The position numbers and the translations under genes were made by a program. A stretch of DNA of 61,138 nucleotides, from assembly GCA_023621995.1 (NCBI GenBank), contig JAMOAB010000039.1:1-61138 (forward strand), given 5' to 3'. Position 1 is the stretch's first letter. Every line of letters begins with the position of its first letter. The notes under the pieces were generated by a model. That model made no database searches, was not told where the DNA came from, and was given only the letters and a program-made list of their open reading frames with translations. This document shows, in pieces, positions 1 to 40,223 of the stretch. Source of the stretch: Bacillota bacterium. Lineage in GTDB: Bacteria; Bacillota; Clostridia; Caldicoprobacterales; Xylanivirgaceae.

Positions 1-32
1 TTCCCAAGATAGTAGATAACTATGAATAATTT

Positions 33-61
33 GAAAAGAGCCAGGGAAAACTCCCTGACTC
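33..61 (-). terminator. Terminator after flagellin
   Basis: Read on the minus strand, AGTCAGGG, a short loop of Ts and CCCTGGCT form a hairpin with one G-U pair, followed by CTCTTTTC. It lies just past the flagellin stop codon and would end the flagellin transcript. Confidence 0.7.
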
Positions 62-75
62 CTTTAAATATACTA

Positions 76-1005
76 TTATCGAAGTAACTGCAGTACTGAC
101 TGAGGTACCTGGTTGGCTTGGGCAAGCATTGCAGTAGCTGCCTGCTGTAGGATGTTGTTCTTTGTGAACTCCATCATTTCTTTGGCCATATCCACATCCC
201 TTATTCTTGACTCTGCTGCCTGTAGGTTCTCTGCTGATGTGTCTAAATTCTTGATTGTGTGCTCTAGACGGTTCTGATAGGCGCCTAGCTTAGCTCTTTC
301 AGCTGAAACCTGTTCAATAGCAGTATTTATATTAGTGATAGCTGCATCAGCACCAGCTTGAGTTAAGACTCCTCCAATACCAGCGGATTCTTCAGTTAAA
401 TCATCAACGTCTTTCACCTTTAAACTTGCAATAGTAATTGTTTCATCTTTTCCTATTTTGCCAGCATTCATACTATTAATTCCAAGAGTAATGGACTGAC
501 CTTCATTAGCACCTATATGGAATTTTACTCCACCTGTAACTTTACCTTCTCCGTCTGTACTTGTTGCTAAGGTGCCATTTAGCAAATTCTTAGTATTGAA
601 CTGTGTATCATTTGCTATCCTATCAATCTCATCGATTAATTCGTTTATTTCTTTTTGGATCTCTTTACGGTCTGTAAATGTATTAGTGTCACTTGCAGCT
701 TGTGTAGCAAGCTCCCTCATCCTCTGAAGGATTGAGTGTGTCTCTGTTAGAGCACCTTCTGCTGTTTGAATGAGTGATATACCATCCTGAGCATTCTTAG
801 AAGCCATGTTAAGACCTCTTATCTGAGCCCTCATCTTCTCAGATATTGCAAGACCTGCTGCGTCATCCCCTGCACGGTTGATTCTGTAGCCAGATGAAAG
901 TTTCTTCCTCCTTGAATTTATACTACCGGCGTCCTTGCCGGCATATTTTATGGAGTTATATACTGTCCGGCCGCTACAGCATATGAGCTCCATTTTTGCT
1001 TCCAC
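76..1005 (-). CDS. hag: Flagellin, 5' end deleted (probably non-functional start)
   Basis: Subunit of the flagellar filament. From KLSSGYRINRAGDDAAGLAI onward the protein is an ordinary short flagellin: conserved N-terminal D1 region, short variable centre, and a conserved C-terminal helix ending VPQSVLQLLR. The first 33 residues of the open frame are not flagellin: the usual MRINxNIxAxN...LEK helix (about 28-30 residues) is absent. That stretch is the untranslated leader, because a SigD-type promoter lies at 1011-1037, so position 1005 is near the transcription start, and a strong Shine-Dalgarno (AAGGAGGAA, 905-913) stands immediately before the KLSSGY codons. I read this as a deletion of about 85-95 bases that removed the start codon and the D0 helix. 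An in-frame ATG at 993 could give a product with a foreign N-terminus, but without D0 it should not polymerise. The gene follows csrA and fliW, which control its translation in relatives. Confidence 0.85.
   Translation of the reverse strand: MEAKMELICCSGRTVYNSIKYAGKDAGSINSRRKKLSSGYRINRAGDDAAGLAISEKMRAQIRGLNMASKNAQDGISLIQTAEGALTETHSILQRMRELATQAASDTNTFTDRKEIQKEINELIDEIDRIANDTQFNTKNLLNGTLATSTDGEGKVTGGVKFHIGANEGQSITLGINSMNAGKIGKDETITIASLKVKDVDDLTEESAGIGGVLTQAGADAAITNINTAIEQVSAERAKLGAYQNRLEHTIKNLDTSAENLQAAESRIRDVDMAKEMMEFTKNNILQQAATAMLAQANQVPQSVLQLLR
905..941 (-). promoter_or_regulatory. Likely CsrA-binding leader of flagellin
   Basis: On the minus strand CCGGC-AAGGAC-GCCGG (926-941) is a 5-bp GC stem with AAGGA in the loop. 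It is followed about 12 bases later by CAAGGAGGAA (905-914), a Shine-Dalgarno that itself carries GGA. One GGA in a hairpin loop and one over the Shine-Dalgarno is the arrangement known for CsrA repression of hag in Bacillus. csrA and its antagonist fliW lie directly upstream, so this is probably the target of that switch. Binding itself is inferred. Confidence 0.55.
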
Positions 1006-28174: not shown

Positions 28175-28501
28175 ATGTCTGCCGTCAATGAGATGTATGC
28201 AAAGGAATTTAACGCAGATCTTGGTGAACTATCACTCTACCTTGAAGGTTCTAAACACTGGAAGAGATTTAATGCCAACAGAATTGAAAAAATCAAGAAA
28301 ACCACAGTTATGCAAAAGAAACTATTTACTAAAAAACCAGTAGATCGAATAGAAATATTCATAGATGGCGATGACACACTCTATGTAATTCAAAAAGACA
28401 GACTTAAGGATGATTTCAGTTGGGTAAATGATGTGCTAAAGAGTTTCGCAGAAAAAAATAAGGTCAAATACGAAGAAGAGGGACAAAAAATCCAGGTTTA
28501 A
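28175..28501 (+). CDS. Hypothetical protein, 108 aa
   Basis: I do not recognise the family. ATG 28175 follows AAGGGGG. The protein is basic in the middle (RIEKIKKTTVMQKKLFTKKP), has no membrane segment or signal, and ends with an acidic-to-basic tail. DRIEIFIDGDDTLYVIQKDRL looks like a beta-hairpin. The last nine codons lie inside a 54-base perfect palindrome that also terminates the gene. It is a lone plus-strand gene facing the chemosensory operon. Confidence 0.7.
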   Translation: MSAVNEMYAKEFNADLGELSLYLEGSKHWKRFNANRIEKIKKTTVMQKKLFTKKPVDRIEIFIDGDDTLYVIQKDRLKDDFSWVNDVLKSFAEKNKVKYEEEGQKIQV

Positions 28502-28562: not shown

Positions 28563-29711
28563 CTATTTTACTGTAATATTCATTATGGCCACATCATCTT
28601 TCAAAAGCCTAGAATCTACTTTTCCGTAAAATTCTATAATAGCCTCTATAAACTCTTCCACATCTTCTATAGCCTTATCCCTATTAATTGATATAAACTC
28701 ATGTATATCTTCACAGGTAAAGCATTTTCTCTCATTAGATTTCAATTGGGGTTCTAAAAGTCCATCAGTATAGCAAAATATCATATCCCCTTGTTCTAGC
28801 TTTTGCTCCTCATCTCTATACGTCTCTCCATCGAACACCCCAAGTATCAGACCGTTTTGCTCTAACATAATCACATCATTTCTTTTAGGCCTTATTACTA
28901 TGGGATAGGGATGTCCAGCATTTGCATATGTAAGTGTCCCATCTCGAACAACCCCTACAAAGGCAGTCAGATGATATTTGCCTGATATCATTGGATAGAA
29001 TGTATTATTCATGCATGCCAGTACTTCAGACGGCTGGTCATGTATGCTTACACAATTGGTAAACATCACCTTTATCATGGAAGAAATCATGGCTGCAGCT
29101 ACTCCGTGGCCAGACACATCTGCAACTATAAACCAAAGCCCATCATCGGTCTGTACACAATCGTAAAAATCTCCTCCAATTTCACTACATGGTACATACT
29201 TACCTGTCATAACTCCATCTTCTAAATCCTTGTGTTCCACAATTAGAGTGTGCTGGAGGGCATTTGCAAACTTTAGCTCCTCCCTTAAACGTTGGTTCAT
29301 CTGTTTTAAAAGCTTGTGCTGCTCATAACTTCTGAGAGCATTTTGAACCTTAATAGGGAGAACTACCTCCAGCTGCTCTAATGTCAATGGCTTTGTAAAA
29401 TATTCATTTGCACCTAACTCCAGTGCTTTTTTTATGGTATCTATCTCGTCTACTGCAGAATTTACTATCACTGGAATATCCCCATATTCCCTTTTAGATT
29501 TGAGCTCCTTAAGGACCTCAAACCCACTCTTGTTTGGCATTATAAGGTCTAATATTACGAGATCTACATCTCTATTCTCTACGTATTCTAGTGCCTCATT
29601 TCCATCTACTGCATCATAGAAGTTGATACCCTCAATATTTTTTTCTAATACAGATTTTATAAGCTTCCTGTTGAGAAGCATGTCATCTGCTATAAGTACA
29701 TTGTACCCCAT
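28563..29711 (-). CDS. Response regulator with RsbU-like PP2C phosphatase
   Basis: 382 aa. Residues 1-120 form a CheY-like receiver (IADDMLLN acidic pair, LVILDLIMPNKSG phosphoacceptor Asp, YFTKPL Lys). A coiled helix (HKLLKQMNQRLREELKFAN) leads to an SpoIIE/RsbU-type PP2C domain with metal motifs SEIGGDFYDCV, VADVSGHGVAAAM and YTDGLLEP. It would dephosphorylate an STAS partner when its receiver is phosphorylated, presumably by CheA of the same operon. The STAS target is probably 39398-39700. It is the last gene of the operon, converging on the 28175 gene. Confidence 0.9.
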   Translation of the reverse strand: MGYNVLIADDMLLNRKLIKSVLEKNIEGINFYDAVDGNEALEYVENRDVDLVILDLIMPNKSGFEVLKELKSKREYGDIPVIVNSAVDEIDTIKKALELGANEYFTKPLTLEQLEVVLPIKVQNALRSYEQHKLLKQMNQRLREELKFANALQHTLIVEHKDLEDGVMTGKYVPCSEIGGDFYDCVQTDDGLWFIVADVSGHGVAAAMISSMIKVMFTNCVSIHDQPSEVLACMNNTFYPMISGKYHLTAFVGVVRDGTLTYANAGHPYPIVIRPKRNDVIMLEQNGLILGVFDGETYRDEEQKLEQGDMIFCYTDGLLEPQLKSNERKCFTCEDIHEFISINRDKAIEDVEEFIEAIIEFYGKVDSRLLKDDVAIMNITVK

Positions 29712-29752: not shown

Positions 29753-30112
29753 CTATATTACCTTGGATATGGCACTTATTATCTTGTAGTCGTCAAAGGG
29801 CTTTTTCAAAAACACATCAACCCCTAAGCCTTTGGCTTCATCCATAACCTCTCTATCACCCATAGCACTCAACATTATAATCTTTGCATCTGGGTCTTGA
29901 TTCTTTATTGCCTTTGTGGTCTCCAGGCCATCCATTATGGGCATTGTAATATCCATAAACACAAGATCTGGAGAGAGGTCAGTATATAACTCTACACCCT
30001 CCTTTCCATTCTTCGCCTCCCCACACACCTCATATCCATGCTTCTCTAAAGTCTTTTTCAATAATCCCCTTATCATTGGGGAATCATCTACTATGAGTAT
30101 ACGCTTTATCAC
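29753..30112 (-). CDS. cheY: CheY-like response regulator (second copy)
   Basis: 119 aa single receiver domain: RILIVDDSPMIRG, phosphoacceptor in VFMDITMPIMDG, switch Ser in IIMLSAMGD and Lys in FLKKPF. The KILIVDD-start and MPxMDG form are typical of chemotaxis CheY. It follows the CheX cluster and precedes the phosphatase gene by 41 bases. Differs clearly from the CheY at 31560, so the two may serve different outputs. Confidence 0.92.
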   Translation of the reverse strand: MIKRILIVDDSPMIRGLLKKTLEKHGYEVCGEAKNGKEGVELYTDLSPDLVFMDITMPIMDGLETTKAIKNQDPDAKIIMLSAMGDREVMDEAKGLGVDVFLKKPFDDYKIISAISKVI

Positions 30113-30124
30113 ATTATCCCTCCT

Positions 30125-30586
30125 CTATATTTCAAGTCCAATATTCACTTCCACCTCTCCAGCAGGAGTCTTTAAATCTACTGTGATTGTATCCACTGAG
30201 CTTATGATAAAGTATATGTCGCTGCCAAACACAATGGACGGTGGCGTTATATCCACATTTACATCATTCTCAGAAAGGAGAATCGATGCATTGCCTGTAA
30301 CCATGTTTGATAGCTCTCCAATACCACTTCTAGCCACCTCATCCAGCTCTTCAACTGGCATGCCCATCATCATGGATGATACTATATTCTTGGCCGTATC
30401 TTGCGACATTGAATAGGCTACGTTACCTCTAAGTTCCCCTACTATACCAATTATTGCTGTCACATCCTTATCGACAGCCATATAGTCCTTCTTGTATAAC
30501 CCACTTCTCTCTATGCCAACCATGCCAAACTGCTCTAGTATATTCTTTAGTCCATCTAAAAATGGTAGTATATATTTTATATCCAT
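30125..30586 (-). CDS. cheX: CheX-type CheY-P phosphatase paralogue 1
   Basis: 153 aa of the CheX/CheC/FliY phosphatase fold. The catalytic E-x-x-N helix is IGELSNMVTGNASILLSEN, followed by ITPPSIVFGSD, the usual strand. VDKDVTAIIGIVGELRGNVAYS is the first repeat strand pair. It should remove phosphate from CheY. It lies 3 bases after paralogue 2. All three paralogues keep the Glu and Asn. Confidence 0.87.
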   Translation of the reverse strand: MDIKYILPFLDGLKNILEQFGMVGIERSGLYKKDYMAVDKDVTAIIGIVGELRGNVAYSMSQDTAKNIVSSMMMGMPVEELDEVARSGIGELSNMVTGNASILLSENDVNVDITPPSIVFGSDIYFIISSVDTITVDLKTPAGEVEVNIGLEI

Positions 30587-30589
30587 GCA

Positions 30590-31060
30590 TCAACCCTCCT
30601 TTTCAAATGCAATATTTATCTTTAAATCCCCATGGTCAGAACTTCCATGTATGGTCACCGAACTTAACTTAGGGATTGATATAATTGGTTCCTTCCCACA
30701 TAGCACTATGGGTGGTGCAAGCCTTAGGCTGAGTTTAAGCTCATCGTTTAAAACTGTTATGGCATCGCCAGCTATTATATTATTGAGCTCTGCTATAGAT
30801 GTGAGTACGTCATACTCCCTTACATCTTTATACTCCACACCTGTTATATTATTGGTGATTTTAATTGCCAGCTCCGGCACCATATCAATGAGAAATCTCC
30901 CCCTCCTAACACCTGCAAACGTCACTATGGATGTGACACCAAGTGAGGATATCTCCTGCCCCTCTTCACACACCTGGTCACTTAAATCTATGTGAAGTCC
31001 TGTCATCTGCCCTATAATATTTGCTGTGCTTTCTATAAATGGCTTATATAGGCTGTCCAT
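30590..31060 (-). CDS. cheX: CheX-type CheY-P phosphatase paralogue 2
   Basis: 156 aa, same fold as its neighbours. The catalytic helix is SIAELNNIIAGDAITVLND (E-x-x-N kept), then RLAPPIVLCGKEPII. N-terminal YKPFIESTANIIGQMTG matches the CheX opening. It is about as far from paralogues 1 and 3 as CheX proteins of different species, so this is old duplication, not recent copying. GGGAGGG precedes the ATG. Confidence 0.87.
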   Translation of the reverse strand: MDSLYKPFIESTANIIGQMTGLHIDLSDQVCEEGQEISSLGVTSIVTFAGVRRGRFLIDMVPELAIKITNNITGVEYKDVREYDVLTSIAELNNIIAGDAITVLNDELKLSLRLAPPIVLCGKEPIISIPKLSSVTIHGSSDHGDLKINIAFEKEG

Positions 31061-31077: not shown

Positions 31078-31560
31078 CTAAATCTTTGCCACGCTTAAAA
31101 ACATCTCCACGTCTCCAGCTATGAATCGTCTACATATCCTATTCTCCCTGTCTTTAAACACCATCTCTATATTTGTTCCTGATATGGAAAAGGGAGAGGT
31201 AATTGAGAGATCTAGGCCCTCCCTCACCAAATCTGCCTTTACCCTACCCACTAGCATATTGACAAGCTCAGCCATGCCATCGTGTACATCTTCATCTGTC
31301 AGGTCTGTAGGCATTATCCCTGTCATGTACGCAACTATGAGTTTTGAAGAGTTTATGTCGGTGGCCAAGGCAACCACTGCATCTATGCTTCCAAATACCG
31401 CCATAACCCCTATTATTGTCTCTACTGATTCAAACTCGGCAAACTGTGAGCAATCAGGATCATCTTCCACATCAAATCCGGTCATTGTTGTAATAACATC
31501 TATAACTGCCCTGTTTAAGAGACCATTTAACTTTTTCATATCTACAGAAACCATATCCAT
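31078..31560 (-). CDS. CheX-type CheY-P phosphatase paralogue 3
   Basis: 160 aa from ATG 31560, which overlaps the TGA of the upstream cheY by one base (TGATG) with AAGGGG ahead of it, so translation is coupled. The catalytic helix is DGMAELVNMLVGRVKADL (E-x-x-N kept), then SITSPFSISGTNIEMV. The first half (VIGVMAVFG-like IIGVMAVFGSIDAVVALATD) fits the fold. This is the most divergent of the three and may have a different phospho-partner. Confidence 0.82.
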   Translation of the reverse strand: MDMVSVDMKKLNGLLNRAVIDVITTMTGFDVEDDPDCSQFAEFESVETIIGVMAVFGSIDAVVALATDINSSKLIVAYMTGIMPTDLTDEDVHDGMAELVNMLVGRVKADLVREGLDLSITSPFSISGTNIEMVFKDRENRICRRFIAGDVEMFLSVAKI

Positions 31561-31931
31561 CAACCCCTTCCTAGACATTCTAGTATCCGCTTTGTTAGCT
31601 CCTCTATGGTAAATGGCTTGACCAGATAATGGGTTGCCCCTGTCTGTATCGCCTTTATTATATTCTCCCCTCCAGTCTCACTTGTGACCATCATAACGGG
31701 TATATGTCTCAAGTGCTTATCTTTTTTTATAAGCTCAAGCATTTCAAATCCGTCCATCCCAGGCATATTCCAATCTAGCAGTATAAGAGCTATATCTTCA
31801 TATTCGTCTTCTAATATATCAAGGGCTTCCTTAGCATCTTTCGCCTCCACCACTTCATAGTCTAGAACCTCTACTGCACTACGTATTATCTTACGTACTA
31901 TTGCAGAATCATCTACTGTCATGATTTTCAT
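31560..31931 (-). CDS. cheY: CheY-like response regulator (first copy)
   Basis: 123 aa receiver domain: MKIMTVDDSAIVRKIIRSAV, phosphoacceptor in ILLDWNMPGMDGFEML, switch Thr in VMMVTSETG and Lys in YLVKPFT. The WNMPxMxG form is the classical chemotaxis CheY type. It overlaps the end of cheR (ATGA) and the start of CheX paralogue 3, so the block is translated as a unit. Confidence 0.93.
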   Translation of the reverse strand: MKIMTVDDSAIVRKIIRSAVEVLDYEVVEAKDAKEALDILEDEYEDIALILLDWNMPGMDGFEMLELIKKDKHLRHIPVMMVTSETGGENIIKAIQTGATHYLVKPFTIEELTKRILECLGRG

Positions 31932-32794
31932 AGGACTTCCCCCTTTTTACGATAATATACCCCGCCTTCATACTGCTCCATATCAAAATATTCCCTATAG
32001 ACGCTTAGCATCTCTGAACTACCTATAAAGAGTATGCCACTATCCTTTAGAGCCATTGAAAACTTTGAGACAAGCTCATCCTTTAGATCAGATGAAAAAT
32101 ATATCATAACATACCTACAAAATATGATATGGAACTTTCCAAGGAGCACAAAACTATTTTGTAAATTAAACTGTCTAAAGTCTACCATATTTCTTATCTC
32201 ATCGTCTAAAATCCATACTCTTCCTTCACGTTTAAAATATTTATCTCGATAACTAGCAGGCATACCTCGCATTATGGAGATACTATCGTACCTACCCTTC
32301 TTTGCAACTTCAAGTACGGTGGAGGATATATCAGTTGCCACTATTTCAAACTTTGGTAAGAATTTTTCCTTAAGCCCCCTAATATCTAGGAAATTATGTA
32401 TGACCATTGCCGTTGAATAGGGTTCTTGCCCTGTAGAACAGCCGGCACTCCATATTCTTATCCTATCTCTTTTACCACTTTCAAGGTCCTTAATATACTG
32501 GGGGAGAAGTACCTTCTCAAGGATTATCCATGGAGTCTTGTCTCTAAACCAAAGTGTCTCATTTGTGGTTATTGCGTCTATGACCCGCTCTGAAACCCTT
32601 CTATCTTTTTTAGTATATATTAGATGATATAACTCTTCATAGCTAGAACAATTAAATTCACCTAACATACTAGACAGTCTGCTCTCAATTAGATATGCCT
32701 TGTCATTGCCAATACTTATACCACATTCCTCTTCTATATATCTCTGCATAAGTGCAAATTCCTTGGATGATATATTTACATTCATATTCATCAA
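31928..32794 (-). CDS. cheR: Chemotaxis methyltransferase CheR
   Basis: 288 aa. Methylates receptor glutamates with SAM. N-terminal helical domain (ISSKEFALMQRYIEEECGI) and SAM-binding domain with IRIWSAGCSTGQEPYSTAM, ATDISSTVLEVAKKGRYD and IIFCRYVMIYFS. It has no C-terminal TPR or pentapeptide tether. Start overlaps the cheB stop by 4 bases (ATGA). Confidence 0.95.
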   Translation of the reverse strand: MMNMNVNISSKEFALMQRYIEEECGISIGNDKAYLIESRLSSMLGEFNCSSYEELYHLIYTKKDRRVSERVIDAITTNETLWFRDKTPWIILEKVLLPQYIKDLESGKRDRIRIWSAGCSTGQEPYSTAMVIHNFLDIRGLKEKFLPKFEIVATDISSTVLEVAKKGRYDSISIMRGMPASYRDKYFKREGRVWILDDEIRNMVDFRQFNLQNSFVLLGKFHIIFCRYVMIYFSSDLKDELVSKFSMALKDSGILFIGSSEMLSVYREYFDMEQYEGGVYYRKKGEVL

Positions 32795-33930
32795 CCCCTA
32801 CCTGATACAATATCTATAATTCTCCCTCCAATGTCGTCTATATGGACTTCTTCATCAGAAAGGCCTGCTTCATATACACTCTTTGGCATACCATATACAA
32901 CACAACTTTCTCTACTCTGGGTAATGCAATAGCAATTTAGATAGGATTTTAGCTTCCTAACCCCATCTGTACCATCACTGCCCATACCAGTGAGTACTAT
33001 GGCAAGGACATCTCGTCCTCTGTAGTGCTCTGCTACAGAGGAAAAGAGTACATCAGCTGCAGGCTTTACTCCATGTACAGGGGGAGTATCCTCTAGGTCA
33101 ATTACCCTAAGTCCACCCTTATTCCCTATCACCATATGAAAGCCTCCTGGGGCAAGTATACAAACCCCTGGCTCTATCCTACACCCAGCCTTACCTTCCC
33201 TTACACTGAGTTTACTCTTCTTATCCAAAGTCTCTGCCAGCATTTTGGTAAATGTGGGAGGCATGTGCTGGACAATGAGTATGGGAACATCAATATCTGA
33301 AGGCAATGCTGTTAGCACCTTCTCCAGGGCCATAGGACCACCAGTAGAAGAAGCTATTAGTATGAGATCAACATCCTCTAGCTTGACTTTAGCTAAAGAT
33401 CTATCCTCCTCACATCTGTAGGGTTTGGATGTTATCTTGCCCTTTCCCTCCATCTTAAAATCTGTAGATTGTTTACTAGGCATGCGCTTCTTTGCCGCCT
33501 CTTTAAAGACGTTAGAGTATTTTTTAGTGAGTATCTGGGCAAAGAGAATATGGAGATAACTCTTAATCCTCTCCATATTTCTCTCCATATTACTGCCTGA
33601 GGGCTTTAATATAAAATCCATTGCCCCCATTTCAAGGGCCTTTACTGTGAGCTCTGCACTGTCTTTTCCGCCGCTGCTTATCATTATAACTGGCTTATCT
33701 TCATACTTCTCCTTTATTATCCTTAGCACTTCAAGACCATTTAGTTTGGGCATATATACATCGAGCAATATTACGTCAATTTCTCCCTGTTCTAGTCTCT
33801 CTAGTGCAATCTCTCCATTGGATGCTGTATATTTTACCTCAGCAAGCCCAGTGTCTTCCACTGCTCTTGTAAGTATATTCCTATAGACTAGAGAGTCATC
33901 TACTACAAGTACCTTTAGCTTATCCCCCAA
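32791..33930 (-). CDS. cheB: Chemotaxis methylesterase CheB
   Basis: 379 aa. Receiver domain at 1-120 (VLVVDDSLVYR, VILLDVYMPKLNGLEVL) joined by a basic linker to the esterase with LILIASSTGGPMALEKVL (catalytic Ser), IVQHMPPTFTKML (His) and VLTGMGSDGTDGVRKL (Asp). Removes methyl groups from the receptor when phosphorylated by CheA. Start is TTG 33930 with GAGGGTG upstream. Confidence 0.95.
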   Translation of the reverse strand: MGDKLKVLVVDDSLVYRNILTRAVEDTGLAEVKYTASNGEIALERLEQGEIDVILLDVYMPKLNGLEVLRIIKEKYEDKPVIMISSGGKDSAELTVKALEMGAMDFILKPSGSNMERNMERIKSYLHILFAQILTKKYSNVFKEAAKKRMPSKQSTDFKMEGKGKITSKPYRCEEDRSLAKVKLEDVDLILIASSTGGPMALEKVLTALPSDIDVPILIVQHMPPTFTKMLAETLDKKSKLSVREGKAGCRIEPGVCILAPGGFHMVIGNKGGLRVIDLEDTPPVHGVKPAADVLFSSVAEHYRGRDVLAIVLTGMGSDGTDGVRKLKSYLNCYCITQSRESCVVYGMPKSVYEAGLSDEEVHIDDIGGRIIDIVSGRG

Positions 33931-33943
33931 TTTAATTCACCCT

Positions 33944-36376
33944 CTATATCTTATATTGCTTAACCAAAGACTCTAGCTTTTTAGCATGTTCTGACAGCGA
34001 ACTTGCAGACGTACTAGTTTCCATGGCCTGATTGGCAGTATCATTGGCAGCTGCAGTTATCTCTTCTATATTTTGCGATATCTCGCTTGTACCTTTGGAT
34101 ATCTCGTCTGTAGATCTTGCCACGTCAATTACCTTTCTAGATGCTACCTCTGTGTTCTGTGCAATCTCATTTGCCGCTGTCGATAGTTCAGATGAAGACC
34201 TTGCTATTTCTCGTACTCCTAGGGAAGCTTCAGATAGACTCTTGGATGCCTCACGGGCATTTTCTGCAACCCCGCCTACCTCACTACTCACCCGACTTAC
34301 CTCACTGGCTGCCTTTACAACAGAGTTTGAGATCTCGCCTGTTATGGCTGACTGTTCGGTTACAGCCGAGGCTATGGCATTGGTTATATTGTCTATCTCT
34401 TCTATTACAACTGTTATGGTCTCAACAGCACTTACTGCATCTCCCATATCAAGTTGCATCTCCTCTATCTGCTGGGCTATCTCATCGGTTGCCTCTGCAG
34501 TCTGTTTTGCAAGTTCCTTAACCTCGCTTGCCACCACTGCAAAGCCTTTACCAGCCTCGCCGGCTCCGGCAGCCTCAATGGCAGCATTTAGCGCTAACAT
34601 ATTGGTCTGATCAGCTATGTCGTTTATCACATTTACAATCTTACCTATTTGTTTAGATGATCTATTTAGTTTTTCTATTATCTCATTTGTATCCTTTGCC
34701 TTACCCTCTGCATCCTTCGTAATTGCAATAGAGCGATCACAGCTCTTGCTTACTTCATTAAGCGAAATATTAAGTTCCTTGACAGCAGTAGCCACACTAT
34801 TTACCGATGTAGCTACTTGCTCTGACGAATCTGCTGCACTGTCTATCCTATCTGATATCTGGGCCACAACACTGCTCACCTGATCTACACTCACCGATGT
34901 CTCCTCAGAGGCAGATGCTAAGTTTCGCACAGTTGCCGACATCTCCTCTATGGCAGATGCTATGACACTTATATTGCTACTTGCCTCCGACGAGGCAGCA
35001 GCTGTACTCTCTATACTAACCGTTATCTCATGGACAGCGGCGCTTACAACTCCTGTCTTAGCGTTCATCTCTTCACTATTTGCCGCCAGTGTATCGGCAA
35101 TATTTAAAAGCCCATCTGACGATTGATTTAACAAAAGTGCTGTCTCATACACGTCACTGGTCATGGAATGCATCTTGTCTATGAGATTATTAAAGGATTC
35201 TGTAAACATTCCAAGCTCATCTTTAGACCTAATCTCGCCTCGGATGGTAAGATCTCCATCACCGATACCTTCCATAAGCCCTTCAAGCTCTTTTATGGGA
35301 GAGGCTATTTTGTCTGCAATATATACACGTAGTATGAGTGCGGCTATTATTCCAGCAGCAATGGCCACTATGAGCACTATATAGGATGTGTGGGCCACTT
35401 TCTTGCCCCGTCTTGCACTTGCATCTGCCAACTGTCCACTCTTTTTCTCCAAAATCTCAATGCTTTCACTTGCTGCTTTATAAGCAGGTTTTTCGATAGT
35501 TAAGGCATGTTCCATCATCTCATGATATATATCTTCTGCCCTCTTCGCTACTTCATCCATGCTATCTAATAGCTCTAGTACCTTTGCCATAGTGGGCTCT
35601 GTCACATTTTTATATTCGGCCATAGCAAGGTCTATCCTATTGCCCTCATTGCCATTTAATATATCAACAATCTTTTCTCCACTCTCATGGACAGCCTTAT
35701 GATAGCCATCTAGCTCTTTTAGGAGTGCATTTATCTCGTCATTTTCCGTCTCAAATGTGGTTAGCCATTGGCCTAGTGCACATTTTGTAGGATCTAGTTC
35801 GCCTTGAAATTCTGTGTCATCAACTATAGACACACCAAGTTCCCTTATCCACATTACATGATCCCGCTCTCTCTGGGCTATCACATAACGAAGGGTATCA
35901 GGCTCTATAATATGTGTCTCATCTAGTCGCCTTGACATCTCCATAAATTCTTCATGATGTTTTTTCCAGGTATTCCATTGGAGCATGAACTCGCCCCACA
36001 ATTTCTTCTCCTCTCCGCTTAGATCCAAGCTTTCATATTGGTTCCAAGCCCTATCTATCGTCTCCCATTTTTCTTCTATCACTTTGTAGCGCTGTTCTCT
36101 ATCCTCTTTAGACAGCTCAGAGCTTAAAAGCATATTCTCTGCCATGTTTATCTCTGAATGGGCCTTTCCCAGTACAAGCAATGCCTCAAAGCTCTCCATC
36201 CTCACCTCAGTTATATCCCTAAGCCCGTCCATAATATTGTTCATACCTATGTAACCTACTGCCCCTATTATTATAGTTATGGCTATGGTTATTGAAAATG
36301 CAGCCAAGAGTTTGCCTTTGAGTTTCATATCATCAAAATTAGTAAATTTAAACCACTTCTTCTTTTGTGTATCCAT
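33944..36376 (-). CDS. Methyl-accepting chemotaxis protein with outer CZB-like domain
   Basis: 810 aa receptor, the only one in the window. Membrane segments lie near 22-44 and 331-352. The outer part is a helical bundle that includes a CZB-like zinc site: RDHVMWIRE (His173), [11 protein letters not shown] (Cys199), then YHKAVHESG (His226, His230). A HAMP region ([20 protein letters not shown]) and a long signalling domain follow, with the hairpin tip [21 protein letters not shown]. In most proteins CZB is cytoplasmic and senses zinc or hypochlorite; here it faces outward. The gene lies between cheW and cheB, so it is likely the dedicated input of this array. Confidence 0.9.
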
Positions 36377-36390
36377 CTAACACATACCCC

Positions 36391-36825
36391 CTATAGTTCA
36401 TGTTGAAATATTTCCTCTGTATCAATGAGCATTATGAGCTCAGTGTCTTTCTTTATCACTTCTTTTAAAAATTTGGCTTCAACAGCACTTATATTGGCAG
36501 GCAGGGGTTCACATTCATGATCCCCAACCTCTAGAACATCTCCTGGTCTATCTATTAAAAAACCTACAAGGTCAGCATCAGGTGTCTTTGGCTTTAACGT
36601 TATACAAGTAGGTCTATTTTTATTACATCCCTCTTCATATTCTAGCCTCTTACCAATGTCAAATAGGGTAACAACCTGTCCCCTCATGTTGAATAATCCT
36701 ACTATATAGTCCCTACTTCGGGGAACAGGTGTGTATTTTATATTTCGATTGATCTCCTTAACCATGGTTATATCTATGCCAAATAGCCTATCACATAGAT
36801 AGAATGTAAGTACCTTACCCTCCAT
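36391..36825 (-). CDS. cheW: Chemotaxis coupling protein CheW
   Basis: 144 aa from ATG 36825 (AAGGAGG upstream), overlapping the 3' end of cheA by 11 bases. Two CheW beta-barrel halves: LTFYLCDRLFGIDITMVKEI, VPRSRDYIVGLFNMRGQVVTLFD (split here as two motifs around the conserved NxRG) and VGFLIDRPGDVLEV. It links the receptor to CheA. Confidence 0.94.
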   Translation of the reverse strand: MEGKVLTFYLCDRLFGIDITMVKEINRNIKYTPVPRSRDYIVGLFNMRGQVVTLFDIGKRLEYEEGCNKNRPTCITLKPKTPDADLVGFLIDRPGDVLEVGDHECEPLPANISAVEAKFLKEVIKKDTELIMLIDTEEIFQHEL

Positions 36826-39376
36826 AGATGCCACCTCCTTCATAGAGCTTGGGACATGCCATATCTATGAGTTCATCTATACTTACAACTAGTACTACCC
36901 GATCTTCCACCAGTATAGAGCCATGGAGACCTGGAACCTTTATATCTTTGTCGTTTATATCTGTAACTCCATGTATGGTGTCATATATACGCTCTACGAG
37001 TATACCAACGCGACTTTCTCCATACTTTGGTATTATGAGGTAGAGCTTTTCACCACTTTCGCCCCTCCTCTGTATAGGAAGATGATCTTCCGGCCTTATT
37101 ATCATAAGGGGCCTACCCCTATAACTCATATACTCCCTATCGCCTATTGTCTCTATCTTACTTTTTTGTATCTCTTCCACTCGAGCAACCTGGGATAGAT
37201 GTACAGAAAGTACCTCTGGACCTGAGGCCTTAAATAGGAGCATGTCATAGGCTATAGAATCAGACATACTAGGTATGTCTATCTCCCCATCTGTAACGCC
37301 ATCATCACCTATAAATTTAAGATCAGCCATCTCCATAATACCTTGGGGATCTAATATCATGGCAATACTTCCATCTCCCATTATGGTAACACCGGAATAG
37401 CACCTACACTCCTTTAAAAACTTAGGTAGAGGTTTTACCAATATCTCTTCATCATCATATATAGAATCTACCACAAGCCCAAACCTCTTAGATCCCAGTT
37501 TCAGTACTAGTACCCTCATTATGCTATCCATATTGCCACCTTCATCTGTCGCCTTTCTAGGCAGACCTAGTATATCTGCAAGATAGATCAGTGGAAGTAA
37601 ATTCCCCCTAAGGCGGAGGACCTCCGATTCATTTATATATTCTATGCTACGGGTATCGTCCCCTGGCTTTATTCTCACCATCTCCTGAAGGTTTATCTGG
37701 GGCAAGGCAAAGTGTTGACCGGCTACCTCTACTATGAGTGAAGATATTATTGCAAGTGTAAGGGGAAGGGTGAGCCTAAAGGTTGTACCCCCTCCCTTTA
37801 TTGTAAATATCTCTATACTACCACCAAGCTTTTCTATGTTCGTCTTTACAACATCCATACCTACGCCCCTACCAGATACGTCGGTTACCGTCTTTGCCGT
37901 TGAAAAACCTGGAGCAAATAGGAGGGACAGGGCTTCCCTATCACCCATCTCATCTAGTTCCATCTGGCTCACTATGCCCTTCTCCAAGGCCTTCTCCTTT
38001 ATAATATCTATATCTATACCGGCACCATCGTCTGATACATCTATAGTTACGTGTCCGCCCTCATGATAGGCCTTCAGTGATACCCTACCTGTCTTAGGTT
38101 TACCTAGCTGCTCCCTCACCTCTGGCTTTTCAATCCCATGATCCACTGCATTTCGTACAAGATGGGTCAGGGGATCACCTAGGGCTTCGATTATAGATTT
38201 GTCGAGCTCCACATCTACACCATCCATGGTGAGCTCTATCTCTTTGCCCAAATTCTTTGAGATGTCCCTTATTATCCTGGGGAATTTATTGAATACATTG
38301 CCTATGGGTTGCATTCGAGTTTGCATTATCTTCTCCTGCAATTCGGTGGTTATATGATCTATATTTTGTAGTATACTCTCAATACCAGGTATGGCCTTTG
38401 TGTGTCCCTCCATTGTCCTAAGAAGCTGATTCCTTCCCAGCACTAACTCACTTGCCAAGTTCATAAGGTCGTTTAAGAGATTTATATGTACCCTTATACT
38501 GTCCTCCACAAGTTTAGAAGAAGGAGTTGTTGGAAGTTTGGAAGAAGGAGTTGTCGGGTGGGCTTTCACCCCTTTTGTATTGGCCTTTTGCAAAGGCCCC
38601 TTTTTCTCCTTACCCTGTCTAGTCTCCTCTCTACCGTCTTCCTCTAAAAGCTTATCTATCTGACCTTTGGATATATCTTTGTCTAGCTCCTCTATATTTG
38701 ACAGAGGAATGTCAAGTGCCTGGGCCACTAACTTCTTTTCCAGCACAGTAGTAAATACAAATGCAAGCTCTATATCATCGTCAAATACATTATGAAGGCC
38801 TTCTACATGGCTTATATCCGATTTAGACTCTATTATATTGCCAATGGAGGCTATATTGTTGAAAAAGGCTATAGGAGTTATGCCCTGCTTGGCCAAATCC
38901 CTGTTTAAGTAGATCTTCACCATATATAACCTATGTCCATGTTTAAGACTCTCTCTAAGGGTGTCCTGGCCATGTGCCCTTTCTTCTTTAGGAGCGTCTT
39001 TACCTGATAAAAAAACATTCAGCCTCTCTATATATTTAGATATATCCATGTTCTGGCTATCTTCCACATGCTCTACCATATAGAGGAGCATGTCGTTTGC
39101 CTCAAGAAGACTATCTATCATATTGGTGGTAAGCTCAAGCCTCTCTGCCCTCACCTCTCCAAATAGATTCTCCATGGTATGTGCTAAATTTACAATATTA
39201 TCTAGGGCAAAGAAACCTGCTGTGCCCTTTATGCTATGTACCGCCCTGAATATATCATTTACAAGGTCTAAGTCTAGCTCCTCTCCTTCTAAATGAAGGA
39301 GGTTATTTTCAACTGTCTCTATATGGGTTAGAGCTTCCTCGACAAATTCACTTATAAATTCTTCATTCTGAAGCAA
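36815..39376 (-). CDS. cheA: Chemotaxis histidine kinase CheA with two CheW-like domains
   Basis: About 853 aa from TTG 39376 (GGGAGGGG 8 bases upstream; another TTG at 39385 is too close to it). Order: Hpt domain with FRAVHSIKGTAGFFA (phospho-His near 47), a P2-like region, a linker holding a tandem repeat of TTPSSKLP, dimer helices, HATPase (HLVRNAVDHGIE, DDGAGID, GRGVGMDVVKTNI), CheW-like P5 (LAIISSLIVEVAGQHFALPQ) and a second CheW-like domain at about residues 690-840 (GVTDINDKDI, VEDRVVLVVSIDEL). Ordinary CheA has one P5, so this one may join more partners. It shares a transcript with STAS and RsbW-like genes. Confidence 0.94.
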   Translation of the reverse strand: MLQNEEFISEFVEEALTHIETVENNLLHLEGEELDLDLVNDIFRAVHSIKGTAGFFALDNIVNLAHTMENLFGEVRAERLELTTNMIDSLLEANDMLLYMVEHVEDSQNMDISKYIERLNVFLSGKDAPKEERAHGQDTLRESLKHGHRLYMVKIYLNRDLAKQGITPIAFFNNIASIGNIIESKSDISHVEGLHNVFDDDIELAFVFTTVLEKKLVAQALDIPLSNIEELDKDISKGQIDKLLEEDGREETRQGKEKKGPLQKANTKGVKAHPTTPSSKLPTTPSSKLVEDSIRVHINLLNDLMNLASELVLGRNQLLRTMEGHTKAIPGIESILQNIDHITTELQEKIMQTRMQPIGNVFNKFPRIIRDISKNLGKEIELTMDGVDVELDKSIIEALGDPLTHLVRNAVDHGIEKPEVREQLGKPKTGRVSLKAYHEGGHVTIDVSDDGAGIDIDIIKEKALEKGIVSQMELDEMGDREALSLLFAPGFSTAKTVTDVSGRGVGMDVVKTNIEKLGGSIEIFTIKGGGTTFRLTLPLTLAIISSLIVEVAGQHFALPQINLQEMVRIKPGDDTRSIEYINESEVLRLRGNLLPLIYLADILGLPRKATDEGGNMDSIMRVLVLKLGSKRFGLVVDSIYDDEEILVKPLPKFLKECRCYSGVTIMGDGSIAMILDPQGIMEMADLKFIGDDGVTDGEIDIPSMSDSIAYDMLLFKASGPEVLSVHLSQVARVEEIQKSKIETIGDREYMSYRGRPLMIIRPEDHLPIQRRGESGEKLYLIIPKYGESRVGILVERIYDTIHGVTDINDKDIKVPGLHGSILVEDRVVLVVSIDELIDMACPKLYEGGGIYGG

Positions 39377-39397
39377 ATAAACCAACCCCTCCCATCT

Positions 39398-39700
39398 TTA
39401 TTGAACAGTAAATACCTCGTCTAGCTTCATAATACTAAATAGATTGGCAATGTCGTCACTGGCTCCAACAACTTGGAAGCTCTTATCATTGTCCGTAGAT
39501 GTCTTAAAAAGGCCTACTACAAAGGTGACACCTATAGAGTCTATGCTCTTTACATTAGATATATCTAGTACTACTGAAGAGAACTGTCCATTATCCTCTA
39601 TACTATCTTTCGCCCTATCTAGATTGTCCCGTACTACACTTGCCGTCAGATCTTCCTTTAGTTCTATAACAAGGCTCTCACCATCTACCTCTATATTCAT
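39398..39700 (-). CDS. STAS-domain anti-sigma factor antagonist (RsbV-like)
   Basis: 100 aa STAS protein of the SpoIIAA/RsbV type. The phosphorylation site block is VLDISNVKSIDSIGVTFVVGL, with Ser in IDSIG where SpoIIAA has its target serine. LVIELKEDLTAS is the usual first strand. It lies 15 bases after the RsbW-like kinase gene, its probable kinase, and upstream of cheA. Dephosphorylation by the phosphatase at 28563 would release it. Confidence 0.9.
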   Translation of the reverse strand: MNIEVDGESLVIELKEDLTASVVRDNLDRAKDSIEDNGQFSSVVLDISNVKSIDSIGVTFVVGLFKTSTDNDKSFQVVGASDDIANLFSIMKLDEVFTVQ

Positions 39701-39719: not shown

Positions 39720-40115
39720 TTAAATATACATGATAGCTGTCATCCAACCGTCCCTATATTCTAGATTAAAACCCAGCATTCTAAGGGTGCTGAGCCCCCT
39801 AAAGCGACAGCGTCCTATATCTTCATGATCTATGGCTCTCAATGTCTGGTCAATATCAAATTCTGGTCCTTCATCCCACACCGATATGAGTATCTCCCCT
39901 CCAGTATGATGGAATATGCACTGGATTTTCTTACGTTGATCAAATCTATTCCCATGCTCAACTGCATTGTTTAAAAGCTCCCTTAGACAAAATTCAATAT
40001 GGAATATTGTAGATTTTGGATATATGTCCTCTAATACAGAGATCCTAGAAGATATATGCCCAACTAGCATATCGACTTCATCATACGACGAGAGACACTC
40101 TCCAATTATGAGCAT
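39720..40115 (-). CDS. RsbW-like serine kinase / ATP-binding protein
   Basis: 131 aa from ATG 40115 (GAGAGGG upstream; earlier ATG codons lack a ribosome site). HATPase_c fold: N-box FCLRELLNNAVEHGN, G1 box SVWDEGPEFDID, G2-like CRFRGLSTLRMLG. This is the anti-sigma/switch kinase family (SpoIIAB, RsbW). It should phosphorylate the STAS protein encoded next. No sigma factor gene lies nearby, so its bound output is unknown. First gene of the chemosensory operon. Confidence 0.87.
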   Translation of the reverse strand: MLIIGECLSSYDEVDMLVGHISSRISVLEDIYPKSTIFHIEFCLRELLNNAVEHGNRFDQRKKIQCIFHHTGGEILISVWDEGPEFDIDQTLRAIDHEDIGRCRFRGLSTLRMLGFNLEYRDGWMTAIMYI

Positions 40116-40223
40116 ATTAACCACCCTCTCTAGGATGTGGACCCAGTTTAATTTATAACCTATTTCACCACAATAAAACATAATATATCATTATTATACC
40201 AAATCCTTATAGTTTTTGGAAAT

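Follow-up and report, generated by a model that had tools for sequence, protein, structure and literature searches.

A candidate outward CZB zinc module inserted in a four-helix-bundle chemoreceptor and encoded beside partner-switch genes

Does this bacterium carry a chemoreceptor with a zinc site on the outer side of the membrane, and what would such a site report to the cell? The question is raised by one receptor gene in the window, i.e., the whole stretch of 61,138 nucleotides analyzed here (Table 1). The sequence-only reading had pointed out His173, Cys199, His226, and His230 as a CZB-like ligand pattern lying between membrane segments at residues 22-44 and 331-352. The four residues were found as H, C, H, and H at positions 173, 199, 226, and 230, and hydrophobic peaks at residues 23-41 and 333-351 agreed with the two segments. 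Beyond that reading, the sensor was found to be a compound of 4HB_MCP and CZB.

Pfam matches to HAMP and to the MCP signaling domain identified the product as a methyl-accepting chemotaxis protein, and the location of CZB between TM1 and TM2 of a membrane chemoreceptor is that of the periplasmic CZB subgroup. As judged from sequence, the match to the CZB family is far beyond chance. TM1 and TM2 flank the CZB domain, HAMP and then the MCP domain follow directly after TM2, and the N-terminal 22 residues carry a net charge of +4. In the standard arrangement of methyl-accepting chemotaxis proteins, the segment between TM1 and TM2 lies outside, while HAMP and the signaling domain lie inside. Because HAMP and the signaling domain come after TM2, residues 45-330 are predicted to face outward. 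The reverse topology, with CZB in the cytoplasm after all, had nothing found in its favor. The flanking segments, the order of TM2, HAMP, and MCP domain, the positive N-terminus, and the helix predicted to run through TM2 all speak against it; it was rejected as extremely improbable, and the outward placement claimed by the sequence-only reading stands, by prediction.

Table 1. Features of the receptor and of the surrounding operon (all on the minus strand)
Feature	Residues	Position (strand)	Evidence or remark
RsbW-like HATPase_c_2 protein		39720..40181 (-)	PF13581 E 5.5e-11
STAS protein, anti-sigma antagonist-like		39398..39700 (-)	PF01740 E 3.2e-9; TIGR00377 E 1.3e-10, below cut-off
CheA		36815..39385 (-)	Pfam
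CheW		36391..36843 (-)	Pfam
Methyl-accepting chemotaxis protein with 4HB and CZB	810 aa	33944..36376 (-)	ORF reading, ATG start
4HB_MCP_1	16-150		Pfam E 1.3e-20, 74.2 bits vs cut-off 27
TM1	23-41	36254..36310 (-)	Kyte-Doolittle peak 2.41
Helices 1-3 of Tar-type four-helix bundle (predicted)	45-154	35915..36244 (-)	Pfam 4HB_MCP_1; model helices; fold matches 7wrm, 8bsa
CZB PF13682	173-237	35666..35860 (-)	E 2.8e-11, 44.0 bits vs cut-off 29.4; 3t9o Z 13.4 over 115 residues
H173, predicted zinc ligand	173	35858..35860 (-)	Kept in 6/6 order sequences, window included
C199, predicted zinc ligand	199	35780..35782 (-)	Aligns with Cys of DgcZ CZB
H226, predicted zinc ligand	226	35699..35701 (-)	Kept in order; aligns with DgcZ CZB His
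H230, predicted zinc ligand	230	35687..35689 (-)	Kept in order; aligns with DgcZ CZB His
Single predicted helix: CZB last helix, 4HB helix 4, TM2, HAMP start	247-372 (126 residues)	35261..35638 (-)	AlphaFold2, residues 1-410
TM2	333-351	35324..35380 (-)	Kyte-Doolittle peak 2.9
HAMP PF00672	354-403	35168..35317 (-)	Pfam
MCP signaling domain PF00015 (MCPsignal), best stretch	554-707	34256..34717 (-)	E 5.6e-39
CheB		32791..33930 (-)	Pfam
CheR		31928..32794 (-)	Pfam
CheY-like receiver		31560..31931 (-)	Domain scan
CheX-like protein a		31078..31578 (-)	Pfam
CheX-like protein b		30590..31060 (-)	Pfam
CheX-like protein c		30125..30586 (-)	Pfam
Second CheY-like receiver		29753..30112 (-)	Domain scan
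Receiver + SpoIIE/RsbU-type PP2C phosphatase		28563..29711 (-)	PF00072 E 1.1e-24, PF07228 E 8.6e-41

The putative zinc ligands were compared with those of known CZB domains. The 3His/1Cys core was present together with the Cx(L/F)GxW(Y/L) motif, which reads CALGQWL in this receptor; the outer domain has no Cys besides C199, Cys546 belonging to the cytoplasmic part. In a profile alignment, C199, H226, and H230 fell on one Cys and two His of the DgcZ structure 3t9o. For the remaining ligand, the NCBIfam model PRK09894 (DgcZ) was used, which matched residues 172-248 from model position 21 at 21.1 bits, far below its cut-off of 256. His22 of DgcZ is named as zinc-binding (PMC8262984), and since residue 172 corresponds to model position 21, H173 falls on H22. 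All four ligands were kept in 6/6 sequences of the order, window included. The stretch DPTKC was conserved among loci L030-L053, which was not counted as evidence because it had served as a search pattern.

The structure of the outer part was predicted with AlphaFold2. Residues 45-332 (19 rows) gave a mean pLDDT of 94.0 and a pTM of 0.83, and the model has seven helices, the final one 85 residues long; residues 1-410 (10 rows) gave a mean pLDDT of 85.1 and a pTM of 0.62. With VIA-align, where a best Z of 14 is typical of largely helical models that lack clear relatives, the model matched the 4HB sensors 7wrm (Z 17.5, 2.3 A over 142 residues, model 12-286) and 8bsa (Z 17.2, 2.0 A over 155 residues, model 1-288), while its residues 114-235 matched the DgcZ CZB 3t9o (Z 13.4, 2.5 A over 115/120 residues), a second DgcZ CZB entry, 4h54, giving Z 11.2. 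We read the 4HB-matching residues (about 145 aligned) as model 1-110 plus about 240-288 of this predicted structure. For the CZB part, the structural match lacks specificity, the LytS sensor 5xsj scoring better than 3t9o there (model 114-236, Z 15.2, 2.0 A over 118). Foldseek returned no row at E <=0.001; TorS came first (E 2.6e-3), and 3t9o ranked ninth (E 0.066). When the PDB was searched with a profile of 19 rows (E up to 1), 3t9o was the best of five rows (E 0.0038); the single-sequence search at E 0.01 returned no CZB chain. The CZB assignment thus rests mainly on Pfam and the ligand pattern, with which the predicted fold agrees.

Given one helix over residues 247-372 and the bundle matches, the CZB would be inserted between helices 3 and 4 of the 4HB. 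That is, the outer part is predicted to be a Tar-type four-helix bundle that carries a CZB bundle between these helices, giving two storeys. A helical bimodular (HBM) label was also considered. The HBM profile gave no Pfam row at E up to 0.1; TorS and McpS came within the top 15 rows of Foldseek (E 2.6e-3 to 0.14), and the label was not adopted in view of the rmsd of 11.6-19.0 A for six TorS rows. The predicted fold is compatible with the proposed four-ligand site. Family match, ligand conservation, topology, and predicted fold together support an outward four-ligand CZB site well.

The distribution of outward CZB domains was surveyed with PF13682 across 398 genomes of the phylum, 93 of which matched (the window's included) with 116 rows. 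The census used 110 rows, omitting the window and five of six below-cut-off rows, and classes were set by TM peaks and by the position of the MCP domain. Forty-three had the order TM-CZB-TM-MCP and were classed as outward, 42 were soluble, 17 were membrane-bound and carried CZB C-terminal to the MCP domain, and 8 were cut or other. The earlier statement that CZB is usually cytoplasmic holds for the published survey overall, where 384 of 10,140 CZB sequences (~3.9%) are putative periplasmic (PMC8262984), but not for this phylum sample, in which 43/110 classified places are outward; rarity of outward CZBs was accordingly rejected for the sample. In the non-redundant outward set of the phylum (43 sequences, with the window counted), the four ligand columns alone were invariant (43/43), and among the 42 soluble CZBs the same four columns plus one Gly, an invariance that is partly ascertained because the HMM was seeded with ligand-holding sequences and Pfam misses decayed sites.

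The sensors of the 43 outward census receptors (window not counted) were 143-178 aa long, whereas that of the window receptor is ~290 aa; this long build was found in none of the 43. A search with the outer-domain alignment gave full-length matches in 6/30 genomes of the order, the window's included (E 3.1e-122 or lower), comprising 2/4 genomes of the window's family and 4/6 of another family. Two more genomes of the order matched over the CZB part only. The long build with intact ligands was also present in the genomes of L035 (Calditrichaeota; one), L036 (Desulfuromonadales; two), and L037 (Zixibacteria; two). The window's genome had four MCP matches and one CZB.

Several other CZB-like sequences were noted. 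L162:2195-5101 encodes a histidine kinase (HAMP-GAF-PAS-HisKA-HATPase-REC) with a CZB-like H, C, H, H set between two TM segments, its CZB scoring 19.9 bits in Pfam, below the cut-off; no histidine kinase is among the subgroups named in section 11 of PMC8262984, in the excerpt drawn on. In L160 (-), an open frame of 920 aa has a C-terminal CZB (residues 826-886), preceded by domains that by eye resemble GAF and GGDEF-EAL, an architecture of a kind already in print. At G491:C38:187869-188614, two CZB-like pieces were seen, one with an internal TAA stop, and an intact 4HB-CZB receptor gene lies ~36 kb away on the same contig; the pieces are perhaps a broken copy.

Relatives lacking the ligands were found in Thermotogota, the phylum of L038 (a Thermotogaceae record). 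L038 has no ligands, with an outer-part identity of about 26% at most. The outer-domain alignment matched 23/101 genomes of that phylum, with 12 long-build matches at E 5.1e-46 or lower. Only L201 kept all four ligands. L179 and L180 lacked the first His only, L165 kept only the Cys, L181 kept only the last His, and the seven sequences L182-L188 kept none. In L182 and L188, the two of these seven that were scanned, the Pfam CZB match was gone while 4HB, HAMP, and MCP remained. In a tree of 23 rows, which carries long-branch warnings, the seven ligand-free sequences formed one clade (100/100) and four partial ones another (93/89). The two clades suggest two separate ligand decays in Thermotogota; one genome, G561, had one intact and one partial copy. 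Since these relatives keep the receptor without the site, the bundle can presumably work without zinc, perhaps with a 4HB ligand of its own, and the decay argues against any requirement for zinc in folding or in signaling as such.

We were also interested in the genes to which the receptor may be wired. The gene order in the window is RsbW-like, STAS, CheA, CheW, CZB receptor, CheB, CheR, CheY, three CheX, CheY, and receiver-PP2C, so that the three partner-switching components, PP2C phosphatase, STAS antagonist, and RsbW-type kinase, are all in one cluster. A 108-aa ORF without a Pfam match, 28175-28501(+), adjoins the receiver-PP2C gene. All six long-build genomes have the receiver-PP2C gene, complete or truncated at the edge of a contig; the G008 copy sits on another contig, the start of which falls inside CheB. 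For STAS, the sequence extends far enough in four genomes, and three of these, the window's, G008, and G017, have it; the contigs of G002 and G005 end before it, and that of G017 ends just beyond STAS. RsbW was found in the window and G008. At the G020 locus, STAS, RsbW, and the counterparts of the first CheY and the first CheX were not found. In the second family (four genomes), another MCP gene adjoins the CZB receptor gene, being cut by the contig end in G005; in the one scanned, L019:8321-10693(-), it is a dCache receptor gene between CheW and the CZB receptor.

The number of chemotaxis genes per genome was counted. The CheA matches were 2, 4, 3, 2, 2, and 2 in G000, G002, G005, G008, G017, and G020, one of those in G002 being a contig-end fragment, and each of these six long-build genomes had two CheR. 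Among the other 24 genomes of the order, only G004 and G016 had two CheA and two CheR, and the rest had one or none. The association of two CheR with the long build gave a Fisher p of 4.7e-5, the genomes being related and not independent. In G004 and G016, the second CheA, CheB, and CheR genes occur without a 4HB-CZB receptor. FliG was present in 6/6 long-build genomes, with another CheA on its contig in G000, G005, and G020. CheB was single in G000, G002, G017, and G020, where it is the copy in the CZB-receptor operon, and double in G005 and G008. The other CheR of the window's genome had no CheA, CheW, CheB, or CheY match within the 16 kb scanned. With two to four CheA and two CheR per long-build genome, the notion that the CZB receptor belongs to the cell's only chemotaxis system is weakened. 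The CheA counts and the single CheB indicate a second CheA in the cell, while the CheB of the CZB-receptor operon may serve both, the assemblies being incomplete. A wholly separate chemotaxis system is favored by the CheA counts and weakened by the CheB counts, and the lack of che neighbors near the other CheR of the window's genome also speaks against it.

What computation gave is the order of the domains, the ligands and how they are conserved, the predicted fold, and the gene order; the following model was built on these. A Tar-type four-helix bundle would form the outer part and would carry the inserted CZB zinc module at the tip farthest from the membrane, and one zinc ion would be held outside the membrane by three His and one Cys. 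Its occupancy may shift with the external zinc supply or with removal of zinc from the thiolate by sulfide, chelators, or oxidants. A change in occupancy would order or loosen the distal bundle and would pass down the continuous helix 247-372 through 4HB helix 4 and TM2 into HAMP, altering the activity of the CheA encoded alongside the receptor. As suggested by the operon, the outputs would be the CheY-like receivers and a partner switch in which the receiver-PP2C phosphatase acts on the STAS/RsbW pair. That outward zinc occupancy is the signal of this receptor, read through the inserted CZB module, is the explanation we hold with moderate confidence as a whole; zinc binding, orientation, signal, and output wiring are its inferred parts. 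Zinc as a signal rather than a staple is proposed by analogy with DgcZ and TlpD, in which binding or loss of zinc reportedly conveys the signal (PMC8262984, PMC12871147), and from the short outward sensors, in which hardly anything besides the CZB could do the sensing.

The metal may instead only staple the distal bundle, with a small molecule bound on the 4HB as the true stimulus in the manner of Tar. DgcZ binds zinc with subfemtomolar affinity, and an outer site that tight might never empty and would then have a structural role only. The 4HB part best matched the sensors of malate/citrate (MCP2201) and D-amino acids (Vc1313), and the Thermotogota relatives keep the 4HB-CZB receptor without ligands, both in line with a structural zinc. 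Against it, conservation in the outward CZBs of the phylum is highest at the four ligand columns, and the sensors of 43/43 other outward receptors are too short for a 4HB beside CZB; from this length, CZB must be the sensor there. A purely structural zinc is rather unlikely in our estimate. Alternatively, HOCl or a different oxidant from outside might oxidize the zinc thiolate at C199, a mechanism reported for TlpD and DgcZ; this would fit the same ligand set and the lone outer Cys, and HOCl-sensing CZBs are reported in two of three clusters (PMC8262984). However, the nearest named relatives are Clostridiales MAGs whose isolate names suggest anaerobic digesters as their source, and HOCl is unlikely there. 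Moreover, the residue after the Cys is Ala here, versus the salt-bridge Arg of TlpD (PMC12871147), and Arg at this place was found in only 2/43 outward CZBs, versus 18/42 soluble ones; the membrane-bound C-terminal class had it in 12/17 (one unread). An oxidant sensor is improbable, and less expected than a structural zinc.

A wider proposal is possible and is made here only tentatively. The receptor may be an external zinc/thiol sensor that, through its own CheA, is wired to a partner switch setting a cell-wide state, e.g., gene expression, instead of swimming or in addition to it; Thermotogota may have kept the same scaffold after zinc loss. If so, the Thermotogota receptors would be a natural zinc-free control. 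The cell may read outside zinc availability or thiol chemistry through such a receptor. Since the CZB is predicted to sit on a long helix into TM2, the operon is definable, and ligand-free relatives exist, zinc-dependent transmembrane signaling is directly testable here.

Likeness to known systems was found on several sides. The 4HB sensors (Tar, Tsr, MCP2201, and Vc1313) share the membrane-proximal bundle with helix 4 leading into TM2; to our knowledge, none has a CZB insert between helices 3 and 4. HBM-type sensors (TorS and McpS) and PilJ are also stacked helical bundles, TorS and McpS appearing in the first Foldseek rows and PilJ in the VIA-align rows. The HBM-type sensors differ from the window receptor by the large rmsd, and the Pfam table of the receptor has no HBM row; we know of no zinc site in TorS, McpS, or PilJ.

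The DgcZ CZB of Escherichia coli (3t9o and 4h54) resembles the window CZB in fold and ligand positions, and the window CZB also has the Trp that PMC8262984 notes for the DgcZ subgroup, three residues past the first His. DgcZ, reviewed in PMC8846402, works in the cytosol, however, and its output is a GGDEF domain. TlpD of Helicobacter pylori, whose structure is given in PMC12871147 with zinc proposed as a messenger, is likewise a CZB-controlled chemoreceptor with zinc on three His and one Cys, but is cytosolic, carries CZB C-terminally beyond the signaling domain, and has Arg after the Cys. Similar in layout are the putative periplasmic CZB chemoreceptors of PMC8262984, with a 3His/1Cys CZB in the N-terminal outer region and a residue after the Cys that is poorly conserved or Ala, as is the Ala of the window receptor. 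The same paper lists 4HB among the domains in CZB architectures, and its 384 putative periplasmic sequences led us to reject novelty of outward CZBs as such. Outward CZBs are already known as sequences, while the two-storey build and the operon seem little described. In the excerpts of the literature looked at, experiments on CZB sensors rest on the cytosolic DgcZ and TlpD, where the signals are zinc and HOCl, and no functional test of an outward CZB was found. In open-access PMC, no paper on a che system joined to partner switching, or on 4HB/HBM with CZB, was recognized as this build, and PMC7666153 has the term partner-switching in its reference list only.

On the output side, CheS of rhizobial che operons (PMC12654446) is similarly a STAS-only protein encoded in a chemotaxis operon. 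CheS differs in that it binds CheA, and no receiver-PP2C or RsbW gene is named alongside it in the excerpt drawn on. The HptB-HsbR-HsbA switch of Pseudomonas aeruginosa (PMC5812489) is alike in that histidine kinases signal to a receiver-PP2C protein and an anti-sigma antagonist. There, HsbR includes a kinase domain as well, whereas the window encodes the RsbW-like kinase separately and the che operon would supply the input.
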